A stretch of DNA of 35,983 bases. Source: Holdemanella biformis DSM 3989 (lineage in GTDB: Bacteria; Bacillota_I; Bacilli_A; Erysipelotrichales; Erysipelotrichaceae). The notes under the pieces are model-generated. The model worked only from the letters and a program-made list of their open reading frames with translations, did not search any database and was not told the DNA's origin. The position numbers and the translations under genes were made by a program. How positions within the stretch are numbered: position 1 is the first letter of the stretch; each line of letters begins with the position of its first letter. Below, piece after piece: positions 15,200-28,170 of this stretch. The stretch is taken from positions 20,957 to 56,939 of the forward strand of contig NZ_DS996842.1 in the NCBI RefSeq assembly GCF_000156655.1, read 5' to 3'.

Positions 15200-15410
15200 A
15201 AATTCAAAGCGATGACAAGAAGGAGTAATTTACTTGTATTCTTTAGAGAGCAGGCGGTTGGTGAAAGCTTGTGTATAGGGTAGATGAAGGTAGTCTTTGA
15301 GTTGAATTTATGAAATGAAGTAGTAAATTTCGTGACACAGCGTTAATGTGAATGAGAATAAAATTAGGTGGTACCACGTCAAGCACGTCCTATGTGGATG
15401 TGCTTTTTTA
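15200..15410 (+). promoter_or_regulatory. T-box riboswitch leader of valS
   Basis: This tRNA-sensing transcription attenuator should read uncharged tRNA-Val. Stem I closes with AATTCAAAG paired to CTTTGAGTT (15294-15302). Its conserved elements AGAGAG (15245-15250) and GGTTGGTGAAAGC (15256-15268) are present. The probable specifier codon is GUA (Val) at 15290-15292, followed by G just before the closing helix. The T-box core TTAGGTGGTACCACG (15364-15378) supplies UGGU, complementary to the ACCA end expected for tRNA-Val. The terminator follows: 15381-15390 pairs with 15396-15405, then T residues to 15409. The gene downstream is valS, which agrees with the specifier. Confidence 0.93.
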
Positions 15411-18852: not shown

Positions 18853-20193
18853 ATGCTTATAGGGGTAAAGGTACAAAATTTTAAATCGTTCAATGATTTA
18901 ACTGCTTTTAATATGATTGCTTCGAATAAATTAAGAAAGCAAAAAGAAAGATTGTATGAATCTGATACAATATCACTTTTGAAAAGTACTGTGATTTATG
19001 GACCTAATGCTAGTGGTAAATCTAATTTTGTAGAAGTATTGCGCTTTATGAAGGAGTGCGTTATAAATCAAGAAATTCCAATTGAATCATATAATTGGTA
19101 TTGTAGAAATCATGAAGAAAACAAAGAAATAATTTCATCTTTTTCAGTTCAATTGTTATTGAATGAGGATTTTTATGAATATGGATTTGATGCTATCTTG
19201 AATACACAAACAATCAAAGATGAATGGATTGTAAATTTAAATAAAAAGAAAATCTTATATCAGAGAAATAATGATGGAAAACCTTTAAATAGTTTAAATT
19301 TAGGGAACGAAGATCGTGTACGTATGGAAATTTATTTAGATGATTTCCTATATAATGACAAATCATTATTTTTAACAGAAATGAATAGAAATAAAAGCTT
19401 TGATAAAGATTCTGAATTAAATGTGTATCATAGAATCTATAATTGGTTCGTAAAGGATTTGAATGTGGTTTTACCAGATATGCCATTAACAAATTTTGCA
19501 TACTATTATGATGAAAGTACATTGAATAATATAAAGAAAATTGTTCGTTCATTCGATACAGGTATAGAGGATATTGAAATTAAGGATATGAGTGAAGAGC
19601 AGCTTCAAAATAAGATTGGTATTTCACTCTATAAAGATGTCATAAGTGAATTGAAAAAGAAGGTTCAAAAACAGAGGCAAGAACTCAATTTATCAATGCG
19701 ATCTAAAAAGGAATTTTTTAATATTACTATGAATGACAATTATGATTTGGAGATTAAGACCCTATGTTTTAAACACGGGAAATCCATGTTAGATTTTGAA
19801 TTTTGTGAAGAATCAGATGGTACAAGACGTATATTTGATTTTTTAGATATATTATTTAATAAAAATAAAAATAGTGTATATGTTATTGATGAAATGGAGA
19901 GAAGCTTACATCCAAATTTATTTAAGCATTTTATAGAATTGCTAAATCAATATCAAAAAAAATCAAATATACAAGTTATATTTACAACTCATCAATCTGA
20001 AATTATGAGTCAAGATTTGTTTAGAAGAGATCAAATATGGTTTGTTGAAAGAGACAAAAATAATGACTCAAAAATATATTCTCTAGATACATTTAACGAA
20101 AGATTTGATAAAAAAATTAGTAAAGCTTATCTAGAAGGTCGATATGGAGCGATACCTCAATTCAAATCTTTTAATATAGATGAGTTAGAATGA
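18853..20193 (+). CDS. AAA family ATPase, RloA/AbiLi-like (candidate phage defence)
   Basis: A 446-residue ABC/AAA-type ATPase of the RloA group. It begins with the typical KVQNFKSFNDL strand, then Walker A YGPNASGKSN (49-58). A long central region follows, then Walker B VIDEMERSLHP (344-354) and a TTHQSEIM switch motif (378-385). The C-terminal end FVERDKNN...LEGRYGAIPQF is characteristic of this family. Such ATPases pair with TOPRIM-like or RloB proteins in abortive-infection systems (AbiL, PARIS and similar), where the ATPase senses phage. It overlaps the next gene by 4 bases (ATGA), so the two products should be made together. It is clearly more AT-rich than valS, and a dead relative lies at 11247-11621. 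Confidence 0.85.
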   Translation: MLIGVKVQNFKSFNDLTAFNMIASNKLRKQKERLYESDTISLLKSTVIYGPNASGKSNFVEVLRFMKECVINQEIPIESYNWYCRNHEENKEIISSFSVQLLLNEDFYEYGFDAILNTQTIKDEWIVNLNKKKILYQRNNDGKPLNSLNLGNEDRVRMEIYLDDFLYNDKSLFLTEMNRNKSFDKDSELNVYHRIYNWFVKDLNVVLPDMPLTNFAYYYDESTLNNIKKIVRSFDTGIEDIEIKDMSEEQLQNKIGISLYKDVISELKKKVQKQRQELNLSMRSKKEFFNITMNDNYDLEIKTLCFKHGKSMLDFEFCEESDGTRRIFDFLDILFNKNKNSVYVIDEMERSLHPNLFKHFIELLNQYQKKSNIQVIFTTHQSEIMSQDLFRRDQIWFVERDKNNDSKIYSLDTFNERFDKKISKAYLEGRYGAIPQFKSFNIDELE

Positions 20194-20894
20194 TTCCAAT
20201 TTCGCTGTATACAGGATTTAATCAAAGACCTTCAGATTTGCTCACAAAGAAAGAACCATATAAAAAGTACTTTATTATTTGTGAAGGTGCTAATACAGAG
20301 ACTTTTTACTTTACAAATTTGATTGACAATAAAAGAGAATTAGGTTTTAGGTCAACAGTAGATATCATCTTAATGGAGAAAACTGGAGAACATAAGAATT
20401 TATCATACGCAAAAAGTCTCGTGAAATTTGCAAAAGATAAGAGAAACGAATTAATTGAAAAAGAAATTTTTAATGCTGAAACTGATGTTATAATTGTAAT
20501 TTTTGATTTAGATATCTTTAACGCAAAAGTGAAAGATATCGATGAAATATTTAAAGAAGAAGATGATCATTTGATATTTGGCTTTACCAATCCGGAGTTT
20601 GAGTTGTTCTTGTTGCTACATATAAAAGATTCATACAATCAGGTCATTAAGCCAAATGAAGAAATCATTTTAAATAATCAAAGAATAGGAAATAAAAGGC
20701 CTTGCGAATATTACTTATGGCAACAAACAAATATGAATTCAAAAAAGAATCCTTTAATCGGAGATTTATCAAAAGAATTATTAATGGCAATTGAACAAGA
20801 AAAGTATTTAAACCAGGATAAGGAGATGTGTTTAGAGAAAATCAGTAGTAATATTGGACAAATCTTAGAAAAAATTATTCGTGATGAGCGATAG
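20190..20894 (+). CDS. RloB-family protein, candidate effector of the ATPase pair
   Basis: A 234-residue protein matching the RloB family, thought to be a TOPRIM-like nuclease. CEGANTET (31-38) carries the conserved Glu after a hydrophobic strand (KYFII). FDLD at 105-108 supplies the paired acidic residues. NPEFELFLLLH (134-144) is the third conserved motif. Translation starts inside the stop of the ATPase gene. In the lactococcal AbiL arrangement an ATPase and an RloB-like protein are encoded in the same order, so an abortive-infection role is likely by family; activity is not shown by sequence alone. Confidence 0.85.
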   Translation: MIPISLYTGFNQRPSDLLTKKEPYKKYFIICEGANTETFYFTNLIDNKRELGFRSTVDIILMEKTGEHKNLSYAKSLVKFAKDKRNELIEKEIFNAETDVIIVIFDLDIFNAKVKDIDEIFKEEDDHLIFGFTNPEFELFLLLHIKDSYNQVIKPNEEIILNNQRIGNKRPCEYYLWQQTNMNSKKNPLIGDLSKELLMAIEQEKYLNQDKEMCLEKISSNIGQILEKIIRDER

Positions 20895-23013: not shown

Positions 23014-23505
23014 TTAATCGAAATTATATCCACCACGAAAATTATAATAAACACTAGTTTCTTCTGATATTCCATATGGATCATCAATGATTTTAAATAC
23101 CATATTAGGATAGAAGTAGCAACAATAAGAATCATCCATGACTAAAAGAAGTCCATTTTTATCTTTACCAATAGCTTTGTATTCTTCTCCAAATGTGATT
23201 CCACAAATTAAATGATCATATTGATGTGTAATACATTGAACTGTAGCTTCATAATTGTTTAGAAGATTACCTTCATCACTTATAATTTCAAAATCTTCTA
23301 AATGATTAAAATCGGTAATCGTACCATCATTACCTCTTACATGTAGGCTAGTACGTTCACCTTCCCAATATTCGATAAAGTAGGCCTTATGCAATTTACC
23401 TTTTGTAAATTTACGATTTGATTTTGCGTTGTATCTTACAACGGCTGGTTTATTAAAGTTTATATTGTTCATATCTTTAAATGTATTATAAGGTTGATAG
23501 TACAT
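23014..23505 (-). CDS. Unknown beta-rich protein with two SH3-like repeats
   Basis: A 163-residue protein. Two beta-rich repeats are visible: one around KAYFIEYWEGERTSLHVRGN to FEIISDE, and one around YKAIGKDKNGLLLVMDDSYC to VFKIIDDP. Both show the strand pattern of small SH3-like barrels found in uncharacterised Bacillota proteins. There is no signal peptide and there are no catalytic motifs. No good ribosome site precedes the first ATG; Met12 is another possible start. It is convergent with the DUF3791 gene and divergent from the marR region. Function unknown. Confidence 0.65.
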   Translation of the reverse strand: MYYQPYNTFKDMNNINFNKPAVVRYNAKSNRKFTKGKLHKAYFIEYWEGERTSLHVRGNDGTITDFNHLEDFEIISDEGNLLNNYEATVQCITHQYDHLICGITFGEEYKAIGKDKNGLLLVMDDSYCCYFYPNMVFKIIDDPYGISEETSVYYNFRGGYNFD

Positions 23506-23533: not shown

Positions 23534-23662
23534 TTGATTTAATTCTTATTAAATGTGATATAATCGCTATCAGAAGTTCTTTGAAATCTCTTTTTAAATG
23601 AATGGGTCTGCGAGAAGGGATTTCAAGTTCTTTAAAAGATATGTTTTATGCATATTTTTTTT
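23534..23662 (+). ncRNA. Structured leader or small RNA upstream of marR
   Basis: Promoter TTGATT (23534-23539) and TATAAT (23559-23564) with a 19-base spacer and a TGTG extension. The transcript would contain an 8-bp helix TTGAAATC/GATTTCAA (23581-23588 with 23619-23626) closing a 30-base loop with GGGTCTGCGAGAAGGG. A 9-base direct repeat AAGTTCTTT flanks it (23574-23582, 23625-23633). A terminator hairpin ATATG/CATAT (23639-23643 with 23651-23655) with eight or more T residues ends it. The marR promoter starts right after. It could be a riboswitch-like leader feeding marR or an independent RNA; it matches no class I recognise. Confidence 0.5.
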
Positions 23663-23663
23663 A

Positions 23664-23704
23664 TTGACTTAATAGTTAAGTAGTTATATAGTTAAGAAAC
23701 TTAA
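23664..23704 (+). promoter_or_regulatory. marR promoter with two palindromic operator-like sites
   Basis: TTGACT (23664-23669), a 17-base spacer and TATAGT (23687-23692). The palindrome CTTAA-TAG-TTAAG (23668-23680) lies between -35 and -10. A second, TTAAG-AAA-CTTAA (23692-23704), covers the start region. The same half-site in both, at promoter positions, is what an autorepressing MarR protein would use. Confidence 0.75.
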
Positions 23705-23721
23705 ATAAATTGGAGGTTCTT

Positions 23722-24159
23722 ATGGAAGTTCAAGATGAAGTACTCGATTTGATGTTTGATCTCACGTATAAAGTCACGAACTATGTTCGAAATAACCGTC
23801 ATTGTAAAGATGGTCCTAGAATAAAGGATGTGATGTTGTTTAAAACGATTTATAAAGCAGAAAATCATCAGATCACAATGAGTGAACTGGCAAATATATT
23901 GGGTGTATCTGCTGCAGCAGTATCGCAGATGATTGCTGGATTTGAAAAGAAGGGGCTGCTTCAAAGGGTGCATTCGAATACGGATCGTAGAACGGTCTAT
24001 ATTCAAATTGTCCCTGAAGCCATTGAAATGTTTCAAAAAAGAATGGATACACATGTAGAAAATGTATATCATTTTTTGGATTATTTAGGATCCGAAGACT
24101 GTGCGCATTTAAGAGATATATTGATCAAGACAACTCGTTATATGGAGGAAAATAAATGA
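23722..24159 (+). CDS. MarR family transcriptional regulator
   Basis: A 145-residue winged-helix regulator. It has an N-terminal dimerisation helix, then TMSELANILGVSAAAVSQMIAGFEKKGLLQR (recognition helix near 65-75, wing with NTDRRTVYIQI), and a C-terminal helical region. The start at 23722 has GGAGG at 23712-23716. The first gene of a three- to four-gene operon, it overlaps the exporter gene by 4 bases (ATGA). By context it represses the exporter and itself through the palindromes upstream. The ligand is unknown. Confidence 0.92.
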   Translation: MEVQDEVLDLMFDLTYKVTNYVRNNRHCKDGPRIKDVMLFKTIYKAENHQITMSELANILGVSAAAVSQMIAGFEKKGLLQRVHSNTDRRTVYIQIVPEAIEMFQKRMDTHVENVYHFLDYLGSEDCAHLRDILIKTTRYMEENK

Positions 24160-26339
24160 CAAAGATATTGAAATATTTAAAACCGTATTGGCTATCGATT
24201 GTACTTGCGTTTGGTTTGTTGTTTGGACAAGCGACTTGTGAACTAACAATGCCGGATTATATGCAAAATATTGTTAATACAGGAATTCAGAATGCGGGTA
24301 TTGAAAGTGGGGTTTATCAACAAATTCGTGAAAAGACTTTAAATTCCTATTTAATGTTCGCAAATGATTCTGAAAAGGATTTGATTACATCTTCATATAA
24401 GTTGGTTACACCAAGTAAGGCAACCAAGGAAGAAAAAACTGAAATTCCAGCTTTGAAAACAGAGAATGTATATGTATTAAAAGATATCAGTGAAGAAAAG
24501 GAAGAAAAGCTTTCTTCCGCTTTGACCTTACTTCAAATGACAATGGTTGAAGTAAGTAAAGATGCTAAAGAACAAAATGTACAAATTCCACAACTTCTTA
24601 TGATGAATGGTATAGATTCATATAGAAAAGCTGCAAAATCCGAGATTTCTAAGCTAGGAGATTCGACTGTATCGAGTATGAGTTCTCAATTCCTTAAAAA
24701 AGAATATACAGATCTTGGTATGAATATGGAAAAGATGCAACAAGACCATATTATCTTTTCTGGACTTAAGATGTTAGGTTATGCCTTAGGCAGTGCTGTA
24801 TGTGCGATTTTAGTTGGTTTTTTAGCTTCGAGAATTGCCGCAGGCTTTTCCAAAGACTTGCGTGAAGAAGTGTTTGAAAAAGTCACTCATTTCTCAAATG
24901 AAAACTTGAACACATTTAGTACATCGAGTTTAATTACACGTACCACAAATGATATTCAACAACTTCAAATGACAATTGTGATGTTTTTAAGAATTGTAAT
25001 GTATGCACCAATCATTGGTGTAGGAGCCATCTTACACGTCATTGAATCGGGTGCGAATATGACTTGGATTCTAGCTTTATGTGTCGTTGTGATTTTAAGT
25101 GTTGTTTTATTAATCTTTATGATTGTGATGCCAAAGTTTAAGATCATGCAGAAAATGATCGATAAAATGAATAGTGTGGTTCGTGAATTGTTAGATGGAA
25201 TGTTAGTCATTCGTGCTTTCAACAATGAAAAGCTTGAAGAAAAAAAGTTTGATCAAGCCAATTCAGACATCACTTCCATTTCCTTATTCACAACACGTGC
25301 AATGGCTATTATGATGCCAATTATGATGTTTTTAATGAATGGTACAACACTGATGATTTTATGGTTTGGATCGAAACAAGTCGATTCAGGCATGATTCAA
25401 GTAGGTAGTATCATGGCCTTTATGCAGTATGCGATGCAAGTTATCATGGCCTTTTTAATGATTACAATGGTCACAATCATGCTTCCTCGAGCTAATGTAA
25501 GTGCTTTGCGTATTCATGAAGTCTTAAGTAGTGAAATTACTATAAAAGATCCATCAAATCCTATGAATTTCTCATCTTCTATGCGTGGTGTTGTCTCTTT
25601 TAAAAATGTATCGTTTAAATATCCGGGTGCCGATGAAGAAGTGTTGAGTAATATTAGTTTTGAAACTAAACCAGGCGAAACCACAGCCTTTATTGGAAGT
25701 ACAGGTTCTGGTAAATCAACATTGATTAATTTAGTCCCACGTTTCTATGATGTAACAAGCGGTTCGATTTTAGTGGATGGAGTTGATATTCGGAATGTGA
25801 AACAGGCGGATTTAAGAAGTCGTATTGGCTATGTTCCACAAAAAGGAATGTTACTATCGGGAGATATTGAATCGAACTTATTGTATTCAAAGAAAGATGC
25901 AAGCAAGGATGATATTTCTAATGCATTATCTATTTCTCAAAGTACGGAGTTTGTTTCTAAAAAACCAGAAGGAATCAAGAGTGAAATCAATCAGGGGGGA
26001 ACAAATGTTTCAGGCGGACAAAGACAAAGACTTTCCATTGCCCGTGCCGTTGTAAGAAAGCCTGAAATCTATATTTTTGATGATAGCTTTAGTGCCTTGG
26101 ATTTTAAGACGGATGCTAAGCTTAGAGAGGCTTTGGCAAAGTCTTGTAAAGAAACAAAGAGTACCGTATTACTTGTGGCACAACGTATTTCGAGTATTTT
26201 ACATGCGGATCAAATCATTGTACTCGATGAAGGAAAGATGGTTGGCAAAGGAACACATGCCCAATTGATGAAATCTTGTGAGGTTTATCAACAGATTGCG
26301 TCTAGCCAATTGACAAAGGAGGAACTTGCCAATGTCTAA
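24156..26339 (+). CDS. ABC exporter subunit with degenerate ATP site and large extracellular insertion
   Basis: A 727-residue half-transporter fusing six membrane helices to an ATPase domain. Residues about 45-198, between the first two membrane helices, form an unusually large hydrophilic insertion placed outside the cell. The ATPase domain has Walker A GSTGSGKS (514-521) and signature VSGGQRQR. Its Walker B has Asp643 where catalytic Glu is expected (FDDSFSALD), and the switch His is Gln676 (VAQR). These are the hallmarks of the degenerate subunit of heterodimeric exporters such as TM287/288 or BmrCD. It is coupled to marR and overlaps the second subunit by 8 bases. The likely role is drug, peptide or lipid export. 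Confidence 0.92.
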   Translation: MTKILKYLKPYWLSIVLAFGLLFGQATCELTMPDYMQNIVNTGIQNAGIESGVYQQIREKTLNSYLMFANDSEKDLITSSYKLVTPSKATKEEKTEIPALKTENVYVLKDISEEKEEKLSSALTLLQMTMVEVSKDAKEQNVQIPQLLMMNGIDSYRKAAKSEISKLGDSTVSSMSSQFLKKEYTDLGMNMEKMQQDHIIFSGLKMLGYALGSAVCAILVGFLASRIAAGFSKDLREEVFEKVTHFSNENLNTFSTSSLITRTTNDIQQLQMTIVMFLRIVMYAPIIGVGAILHVIESGANMTWILALCVVVILSVVLLIFMIVMPKFKIMQKMIDKMNSVVRELLDGMLVIRAFNNEKLEEKKFDQANSDITSISLFTTRAMAIMMPIMMFLMNGTTLMILWFGSKQVDSGMIQVGSIMAFMQYAMQVIMAFLMITMVTIMLPRANVSALRIHEVLSSEITIKDPSNPMNFSSSMRGVVSFKNVSFKYPGADEEVLSNISFETKPGETTAFIGSTGSGKSTLINLVPRFYDVTSGSILVDGVDIRNVKQADLRSRIGYVPQKGMLLSGDIESNLLYSKKDASKDDISNALSISQSTEFVSKKPEGIKSEINQGGTNVSGGQRQRLSIARAVVRKPEIYIFDDSFSALDFKTDAKLREALAKSCKETKSTVLLVAQRISSILHADQIIVLDEGKMVGKGTHAQLMKSCEVYQQIASSQLTKEELANV

Positions 26340-28170
26340 TCAGAAACAAAACAATCGTCCAAGAGGTCCAATGGGCCATGGTATGCGTGGTGGTGGCGAG
26401 AAGGCAAAAGACTTCAAGGGAACGATGAAGAAGCTTTTAAACTACATCAAACCCTTTAAATTCTCATTTCTAGTTGGTCTATTATGTGCCATTGTTTCCG
26501 TATGCATCATGGTGATTGGTCCTAAGATTCAAGGAAATATTATTACTGAAATTGCGCAAGGCTTTATGAATAAAGTACAGGGTAAAGGTGGCATTGATTT
26601 TGATGCGATCCAAAAAACATGTGCTTTATTACTTGCGATTTATGCTTTGAGTACAGCCTTCTCTTATCTTCAAGGCTGGTTGATGAGTGGTGTCTCTAAT
26701 AAAATGGGATACAAGCTTCGTAAAGAAATGAATCAAAAGATTGATAAGCTTCCACTATCTTACTTTGATAGAAATAGTCATGGAGATATTCTTTCAAGAT
26801 TTACCAATGATGTAGATACTCTAGTACAATCGTTAAACCAATCTTTATCCACTATGGTATCAAGCTTTGTACAAATTATTGGCTTTTTAGTCATGATGCT
26901 TAGTATTTCATGGAAGATGACACTTATGGCTTTAATTGTCATTCCATTGAGTTTGATCTTAGTTATGGTCGTTGTCAAAAAGAGTCAGCGTTATTTTAAG
27001 GCTCAACAAAAATCATTAGGTTTAGTGAATGGTCATATTGAAGAGATGTATTCGGCACATACAATTGTGAAGGCATTTAATGGGGAAGAAGATTCTTTGC
27101 GTACTTTTAAAGAATATAATGATCAATTGTATACGAGTGCTTGGAAATCACAATTCTTATCTGGACTTATGATGCCATTAACGAACTTAATTGGAAATAT
27201 CGGATATGTGGGTGTATGTATTCTAGGTGGATATTTAACGATTCATAAAGAAATTGCCGTGGGAGATATTCAATCGTTTATTACATATACACGTAACTTT
27301 ACGCAACCGATCTCTCAAATCTCACAATCTATGAATATGTTACAGAGTACGGCAGCTGCTGCAGAGCGTGTTTTTGAATTTTTGGCAGCAGAAGAAGAAA
27401 TTTGTGATGTAAAAAATCCAGTTGTATTAGAAGATGTACAAGGTCAAGTGACTTTTGAAAATGTATGTTTTGGATATGATCCAAATAAAATTGTCATCAA
27501 CAATTTTTCGATGTATATTAAGCCAGGACAAACGACCGCGATTGTTGGTCCTACAGGCGCTGGTAAAACAACCATTGTTAAATTATTGATGCGTTTCTAT
27601 GAATTGAATGCAGGATCCATTTATATTGATGGCCATAATATTACGGAATATACAAGAAGTGGTTTGCGTAATATGGTTGGTATGGTCTTACAAGATGCCT
27701 GGCTATTTGAGGGTAGTATTTTAGAAAACTTACGTTTTGGTAAGCCAAGCGCTAGTGATGATGAAGTAATCCAAGCGGCTAAGGCAGCTCATGTCGATCA
27801 CTTTATTCATACATTAGATCATGGATATGGTACTGTATTAAATGAATCTTCAAGTAATATTAGTCAAGGTCAAAGACAATTATTAACGATTGCCCGTGCT
27901 TTTTTAGCGGATCCTAAAATTTTAATTTTGGATGAGGCGACAAGTAGTGTGGATACACGTACGGAAGTCTTGATTCAAAAAGGTATGGATGAGTTAATGA
28001 AGGGACGTACAAGTTTTGTGATTGCGCACCGTTTATCCACGATTCGTGATGCGGATAATATTATTGTGATGGATCATGGTGACATTGTAGAAGTCGGAAG
28101 TCATGATGAATTGATGAAGCGTAATGGTTTCTATACGAAGTTATACAATGCTCAATTTGAAGAGGCTTAG
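26332..28170 (+). CDS. ABC exporter subunit with canonical ATP site
   Basis: A 612-residue partner of the preceding subunit. The cytoplasmic N-terminus is Gly/Arg-rich (RPRGPMGHGMRGGG). Six membrane helices follow, then an ATPase domain with Walker A GPTGAGKT (406-413), signature ISQGQRQ, Walker B ending in catalytic Glu535 (LDEATSSVD) and switch His566 (AHR). It supplies the hydrolysing residues missing in its partner. The start at 26332 is supported by AAGGAGG at 26316-26322; the in-frame TTG at 26326 is less likely. Confidence 0.93.
   Translation: MSNQKQNNRPRGPMGHGMRGGGEKAKDFKGTMKKLLNYIKPFKFSFLVGLLCAIVSVCIMVIGPKIQGNIITEIAQGFMNKVQGKGGIDFDAIQKTCALLLAIYALSTAFSYLQGWLMSGVSNKMGYKLRKEMNQKIDKLPLSYFDRNSHGDILSRFTNDVDTLVQSLNQSLSTMVSSFVQIIGFLVMMLSISWKMTLMALIVIPLSLILVMVVVKKSQRYFKAQQKSLGLVNGHIEEMYSAHTIVKAFNGEEDSLRTFKEYNDQLYTSAWKSQFLSGLMMPLTNLIGNIGYVGVCILGGYLTIHKEIAVGDIQSFITYTRNFTQPISQISQSMNMLQSTAAAAERVFEFLAAEEEICDVKNPVVLEDVQGQVTFENVCFGYDPNKIVINNFSMYIKPGQTTAIVGPTGAGKTTIVKLLMRFYELNAGSIYIDGHNITEYTRSGLRNMVGMVLQDAWLFEGSILENLRFGKPSASDDEVIQAAKAAHVDHFIHTLDHGYGTVLNESSSNISQGQRQLLTIARAFLADPKILILDEATSSVDTRTEVLIQKGMDELMKGRTSFVIAHRLSTIRDADNIIVMDHGDIVEVGSHDELMKRNGFYTKLYNAQFEEA

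Follow-up and report, generated by a model that had tools for sequence, protein, structure and literature searches.

Two predicted entry points into an exporter operon

What does a short, terminated RNA do in front of an exporter operon that appears to have a MarR-type promoter of its own? The question arises in the window, the whole stretch of 35,983 nucleotides that was analysed, which comes from a Holdemanella genome. H. porci is the nearest relative found. In order along the plus strand, the locus contains a TATAAT box (the -10 element of an upstream promoter, P1), a repeat, a hairpin, a second repeat, an AU-rich stem with eight U, a second promoter (P2), palindromes, a ribosome-binding site (RBS), marR and the genes of two ABC half-transporters. 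The layout claimed by the original prediction is therefore present: two predicted entry points, with a terminated leader and then a MarR-type promoter and operator, lie ahead of marR and the ABC exporter genes.

The first gene of the operon, marR (23722-24159, plus strand), has the RBS GGAGG just 5' of it and encodes a MarR-family regulator of 145 amino acids. The protein matches Pfam PF01047 and PF12802 above the cut-off, with 43.6 bits for the MarR domain PF01047 against a cut-off of 24.6. On the same strand follow ABC exporter subunit 1 (24156-26339; 727 amino acids; PF00664 and PF00005) and subunit 2 (26326-28170; 614 amino acids; identified by Pfam search). The Walker B region of subunit 1 reads FDDSFSALD, which is of the degenerate-site type, and the corresponding ILDEATSSVD of subunit 2 is of the consensus-site type. 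TM287/288 chain A (3qf4) is among the closest solved relatives of subunit 1. This kinship and the degenerate Walker B end place the pair in the heterodimeric exporter type, and the same features suggest that the two subunits pair with each other. No paper on MarR together with heterodimeric ABC operons turned up in a literature search. About 170 residues precede the ABC_membrane match of subunit 1, which begins at residue 175. This N-terminal part is longer than in subunit 2 and is possibly an enlarged extracellular segment.

The upstream promoter of the original prediction stands in its -10 box and is weaker in its -35 element. The box, TATAAT at 23559-23564 on the plus strand, occurs in the extended form TGATATAAT with TG in front. 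The exact TATAAT is also found in H. porci, and the distance to the conserved RNA body is 7 nt in both Holdemanella. The candidate -35, TTGATT (23534-23539), is spaced 19 nt from the -10 box, outside the 16-18 nt range, and a promoter scan of the window does not list it; no recognisable -35 for P1 was seen in H. porci. Transcription from P1 is predicted to start at 23572, and we infer that P1 is used.

The surrounding DNA contains several other features. A reading frame of 163 amino acids on the minus strand (23014-23505), divergent from the leader, has no match in Pfam or NCBIfam. In H. porci, a plus-strand frame ends about 40 nt ahead of the P1 -10 box. Elsewhere in the window, a T-box leader lies at 15203-15395 on the plus strand (127 bits, well over the gathering score). 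An AAA ATPase gene (PF13304) and then an RloB-like gene (PF13707) occupy 18853-20894, an arrangement reminiscent of candidate defence genes of the RloA/RloB type.

Conservation and spread of the terminated leader

The leader RNA body extends for about 91 nt, from the predicted start to the end of the U-tract (23572-23662, plus strand). It is conserved in H. porci, with 84 of 91 ungapped columns identical (92%). Fourfold-degenerate sites are 50% identical between the same species in the first ABC gene (128/258) and 71% identical in marR (29/41). The binomial probability of the leader identity is 2e-18 against the ABC rate and 4e-7 against the marR rate; both values are rough because sites are treated as independent. 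The conserved block opens at the start point predicted from TATAAT and extends through the terminator, and the DNA upstream of the -10 box (35-100 nt) is unrelated between the two genomes, its alignment being no better than that of shuffles. Since identity is far above that of the fourfold sites and the upstream DNA is unrelated, the leader is very probably under selection, a conclusion drawn from one pairwise comparison because only two species carry the leader. A sequence kept so far beyond neutral expectation probably has some role.

The leader appears to be confined to the genus. When 294 genomes of the order were searched with a covariance model, the two Holdemanella contained it and the other 292 gave no match; the search filters were strict and the model came from two sequences, so that distant relatives could be missed. 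Near related marR genes, the covariance-model search gave no significant match. A DNA search of 60 relatives identified H. porci as the sole true leader match, and 11 of the 16 other, weak matches were inspected and discarded as short AT-rich pieces at unrelated places. A search of the genus likewise found the leader in the two Holdemanella genomes only, and none was found in viral contigs searched with exact leader patterns. In Rfam there was no match at the gathering score and only chance matches at E up to 10, which agrees with the original statement that the RNA matches no recognised riboswitch class. A literature search returned no paper joining Holdemanella with a riboswitch.

The U-tract terminator of the original prediction is real and conserved. 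An AU-rich stem (23634-23660) runs into an 8-U tract, and the fold of the whole element (23634-23662, plus strand) far surpasses that of shuffles, with z -5.5 in the window and z -6.7 in H. porci. Both changes between the species keep the pairs. The terminator ends at 23662 and P2 starts at 23664. At several related marR loci, a terminator that seems to belong to the preceding gene lies a short way upstream of the promoter. It is therefore the dedicated P1 leader that is unusual, rather than the presence of a terminator before P2.

A leader with its own -10 box and a clear terminator could also be an independent small RNA working in trans, the terminator being its 3' end with no cis effect on marR. 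The conserved, unpaired loop segment TGGGTCTGCGA (23603-23613, plus strand; identical in H. porci) fits such an RNA. However, the complement of the loop, TCGCAGACCC, is matched perfectly nowhere else in the organism's own genome and hence offers no perfect trans target besides itself, and the leader adjoins the marR promoter in both species even though the upstream DNA is unrelated. A trans-acting RNA is thus somewhat unlikely, though it deserves to be kept in mind.

Helix 1 and the leader as a candidate switch

The 9-base direct repeats described in the original prediction are present on the plus strand. A sequence scan placed the first copy of AAGTTCTTT at 23574-23582, followed by GAAATC, and the second at 23625-23633, followed by AAAAGATATG and abutting the terminator stem. 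The form AAGTTCTTTRAAA, with one mismatch allowed, was counted three times in the window, where 0.63 occurrences are expected, and three were reached in 1 of 100 shuffles.

The predicted 8-bp helix fared less well. A hairpin does fold in the window, as a helix of 13 pairs, two of them G-U, between a 5' arm at 23581-23593 and a 3' arm at 23614-23626 (plus strand). The 5' arm is identical in H. porci. The 3' arm has three substitutions there, two of which break pairs and none of which is compensated, and its loop side has three additional A (one gap placement). A helix that is not conserved among relatives had been named beforehand as refuting the prediction, and the H. porci sequence does not confirm its conservation. 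The covariance model proposed at the outset was built and run; its leader relatives come down to the two Holdemanella, and in these two available sequences 0 of 28 consensus pairs covary. The fold of the whole leader in the window beats shuffles (z -3.5), and when it is split the signal comes mainly from the terminator. The hairpin alone reaches z -1.8 in the window, with 22 of 500 shuffles as good, and z +0.6 in H. porci. The complementarity of the helix 1 arms is equalled by 5 of 1000 shuffles in the window and by 33 of 1000 in H. porci, two tests that are not independent because the species share an identical arm. What is kept in the leader is its sequence and the terminator, not helix 1, and the two-sequence comparison lowers the likelihood of a structured sensor.

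A simple antiterminator, in which the 5' arm of helix 1 pairs with the 5' arm of the terminator, gained no statistical support. In the window 676 of 1000 shuffles pair as well, and in H. porci 210 of 1000, so the pairing does not exceed chance in either of them, although a fold of these two arms does arise as the H. porci transcript grows.

These results bear directly on the ligand-sensing riboswitch, in which helix 1 and the G-rich loop would bind a small molecule and control the terminator. The conserved loop segment and the strong arm complementarity in the window speak for it. Against it are the weaker arms of H. porci with their two broken, uncompensated pairs, a hairpin there that is no better than shuffles, an Rfam search that yielded nothing credible up to E 10, and the occurrence in one genus only. 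Together with the absence of a simple antiterminator pairing above chance, these findings leave the ligand-sensing claim of the original prediction unsupported. A riboswitch function is possible but unsupported, and we regard it as highly improbable.

Translation of the leader would offer a different kind of switch. No RBS precedes any start of the leader reading frames in either species. In one frame a stop and a start codon are directly adjacent in both, at 23599-23604 and at positions 2874-2879 of the H. porci locus (L019). They read TGA-ATG in the window and TAA-TTG in H. porci, an observation that rests on two substitutions. The leader might accordingly code for one tiny peptide or for two (LKSLFK and then MGLREGISSSLKDMFYAYFFY), and stalling of a ribosome there might keep the terminator from forming, as with bmrB in B. 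subtilis. Both adjacent codons have changed without loss of their role, the indel between the repeats is 3 nt, and a ribosome-mediated mechanism has been shown for bmrCD (PMC4191407). Yet neither start has an RBS in either species, most in-frame changes alter the amino acid, an extra base at the terminator shifts the end of the frame, and the antiterminator pairing is not above chance. Control by a leader peptide is, on balance, quite unlikely.

The repeats suggest one further mechanism. If AAGTTCTTTGAAA were boxA-like, it could load Nus factors, and P1 transcripts would read through the terminator under some conditions. The leader has TCTTTGAAA in common with the boxA-like GATCTTTGAAAACTGA of the organism's own rRNA operon leader and spacer, and the repeat is present in two copies. 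However, the 9-mer is expected by chance about 1.6 times in the window, the second copy in the window is TCTTTAAAA, and boxA systems act mainly on Rho-dependent termination. The chance that the repeats work in this way seems very slim indeed. An origin of the leader from an rRNA leader was rejected as well, the rRNA operon leader and spacer sharing only the boxA-like 9-mer with it.

The predicted MarR operator and control of the exporter

The second promoter of the original prediction, P2 (23664-23692, plus strand), was found by the promoter scan as TTGACT-17-TATAGT and is conserved in H. porci. P2 and the operator are identical at 54 of 59 columns, and like the leader both are very probably under selection. 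The sequences of leader, terminator, P2 and operator are all conserved between the two species. The predicted operator, TAGTTAAGAAACTTAAATA (23689-23707, plus strand), overlaps the -10 box of P2; none of 300 shuffles gives as good a match, and similar sites lie upstream of related marR genes. The sequence AGTTAAGNNNCTTAA occurs once in each Holdemanella genome, at the operator. Of the two TTAAG palindromes originally noted, TTAAG-AAA-CTTAA (23692-23704) is conserved, its arms identical and its spacer AAA in the window and CTA in H. porci. The other, CTTAATAGTTAAG (CTTAA-TAG-TTAAG; 23668-23680, plus strand), is imperfect in H. porci (CTAAATAGTTAAG).

Nine of 16 other marR-like loci in the family and order carry, no further than 110 nt from the start, a site with 3 or fewer mismatches to TAGTTAAGNNNCTTAACTA, and 0 of 300 shuffles reach the site match in those nine loci; since TAGTTAAGNNNCTTAACTA was written after viewing these regions, the counts describe the motif and are no independent test. 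The palindrome TAGTTAAGNNNCTTAAATA downstream of the leader is a convincing candidate for a MarR operator. On one relative's contig, three marR-like genes follow one another in a stretch of about 1.4 kb (loci L028, L040 and L042).

We give a probability of roughly 55% to a MarR-autorepressed ABC exporter operon with an extra promoter, P1, that makes a conserved, terminated leader of about 91 nt serving as an attenuator or insulator. MarR from the operon would bind the TAGTTAAG-N3-CTTAAATA operator at the -10 box of P2, and an inducer would free MarR, allowing the exporter to be made from P2. Polymerase that starts at P1, or arrives from upstream, would be halted at the terminator just ahead of P2, so that the leader is probably a simple attenuator or insulator. 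It would limit the share of transcripts that enter marR and the exporter genes. We infer that some read-through past the terminator occurs and that it is regulated at all. The leader probably does something, and the evidence does not point to sensing.

Known systems offer functional comparisons, with no homology claimed. In S. pneumoniae, transcription of the patAB ABC drug exporter pair is limited by an intrinsic terminator in the leader immediately ahead of it (PMC4319486). A leader terminator upstream of an ABC exporter pair is common to both systems, but it stands directly before patA there, whereas marR and a MarR-type promoter lie in between in Holdemanella. The bmrCD locus of B. subtilis likewise consists of a promoter, a leader with a terminator and an ABC exporter pair; there bmrB, a leader peptide of 53 codons, is translated, an antiterminator is predicted, and AbrB controls the promoter (PMC4191407). 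In contrast, the Holdemanella leader was found to have no RBS or supported antiterminator, and P2 is a promoter of the MarR type. There is also a likeness in layout to MarR-family autoregulated exporter operons, in which marR comes first, a palindrome lies over the promoter, the exporter genes are 3' and the site is common to related marR genes. In Holdemanella an additional terminated leader, specific to the genus, precedes the MarR promoter, and the arrangement seems to be a minor, genus-specific variant of exporter control as already known.

A more far-reaching interpretation is that the leader, with no RBS, a conserved unpaired TGGGTCTGCGA and a repeated AAGTTCTTT, is a new type of genus-specific conditional attenuator that provides a second, RNA-based input independent of MarR. 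We consider this unlikely. If the leader does regulate read-through, a common gut genus would control the expression of a drug exporter through two independent inputs at one operon, one of them a repressor and the other an RNA switch. As it stands, the main result is a MarR operator motif, well supported, for a family of exporter operons in gut bacteria, together with a conserved small leader RNA that deserves a place in transcript-end maps.
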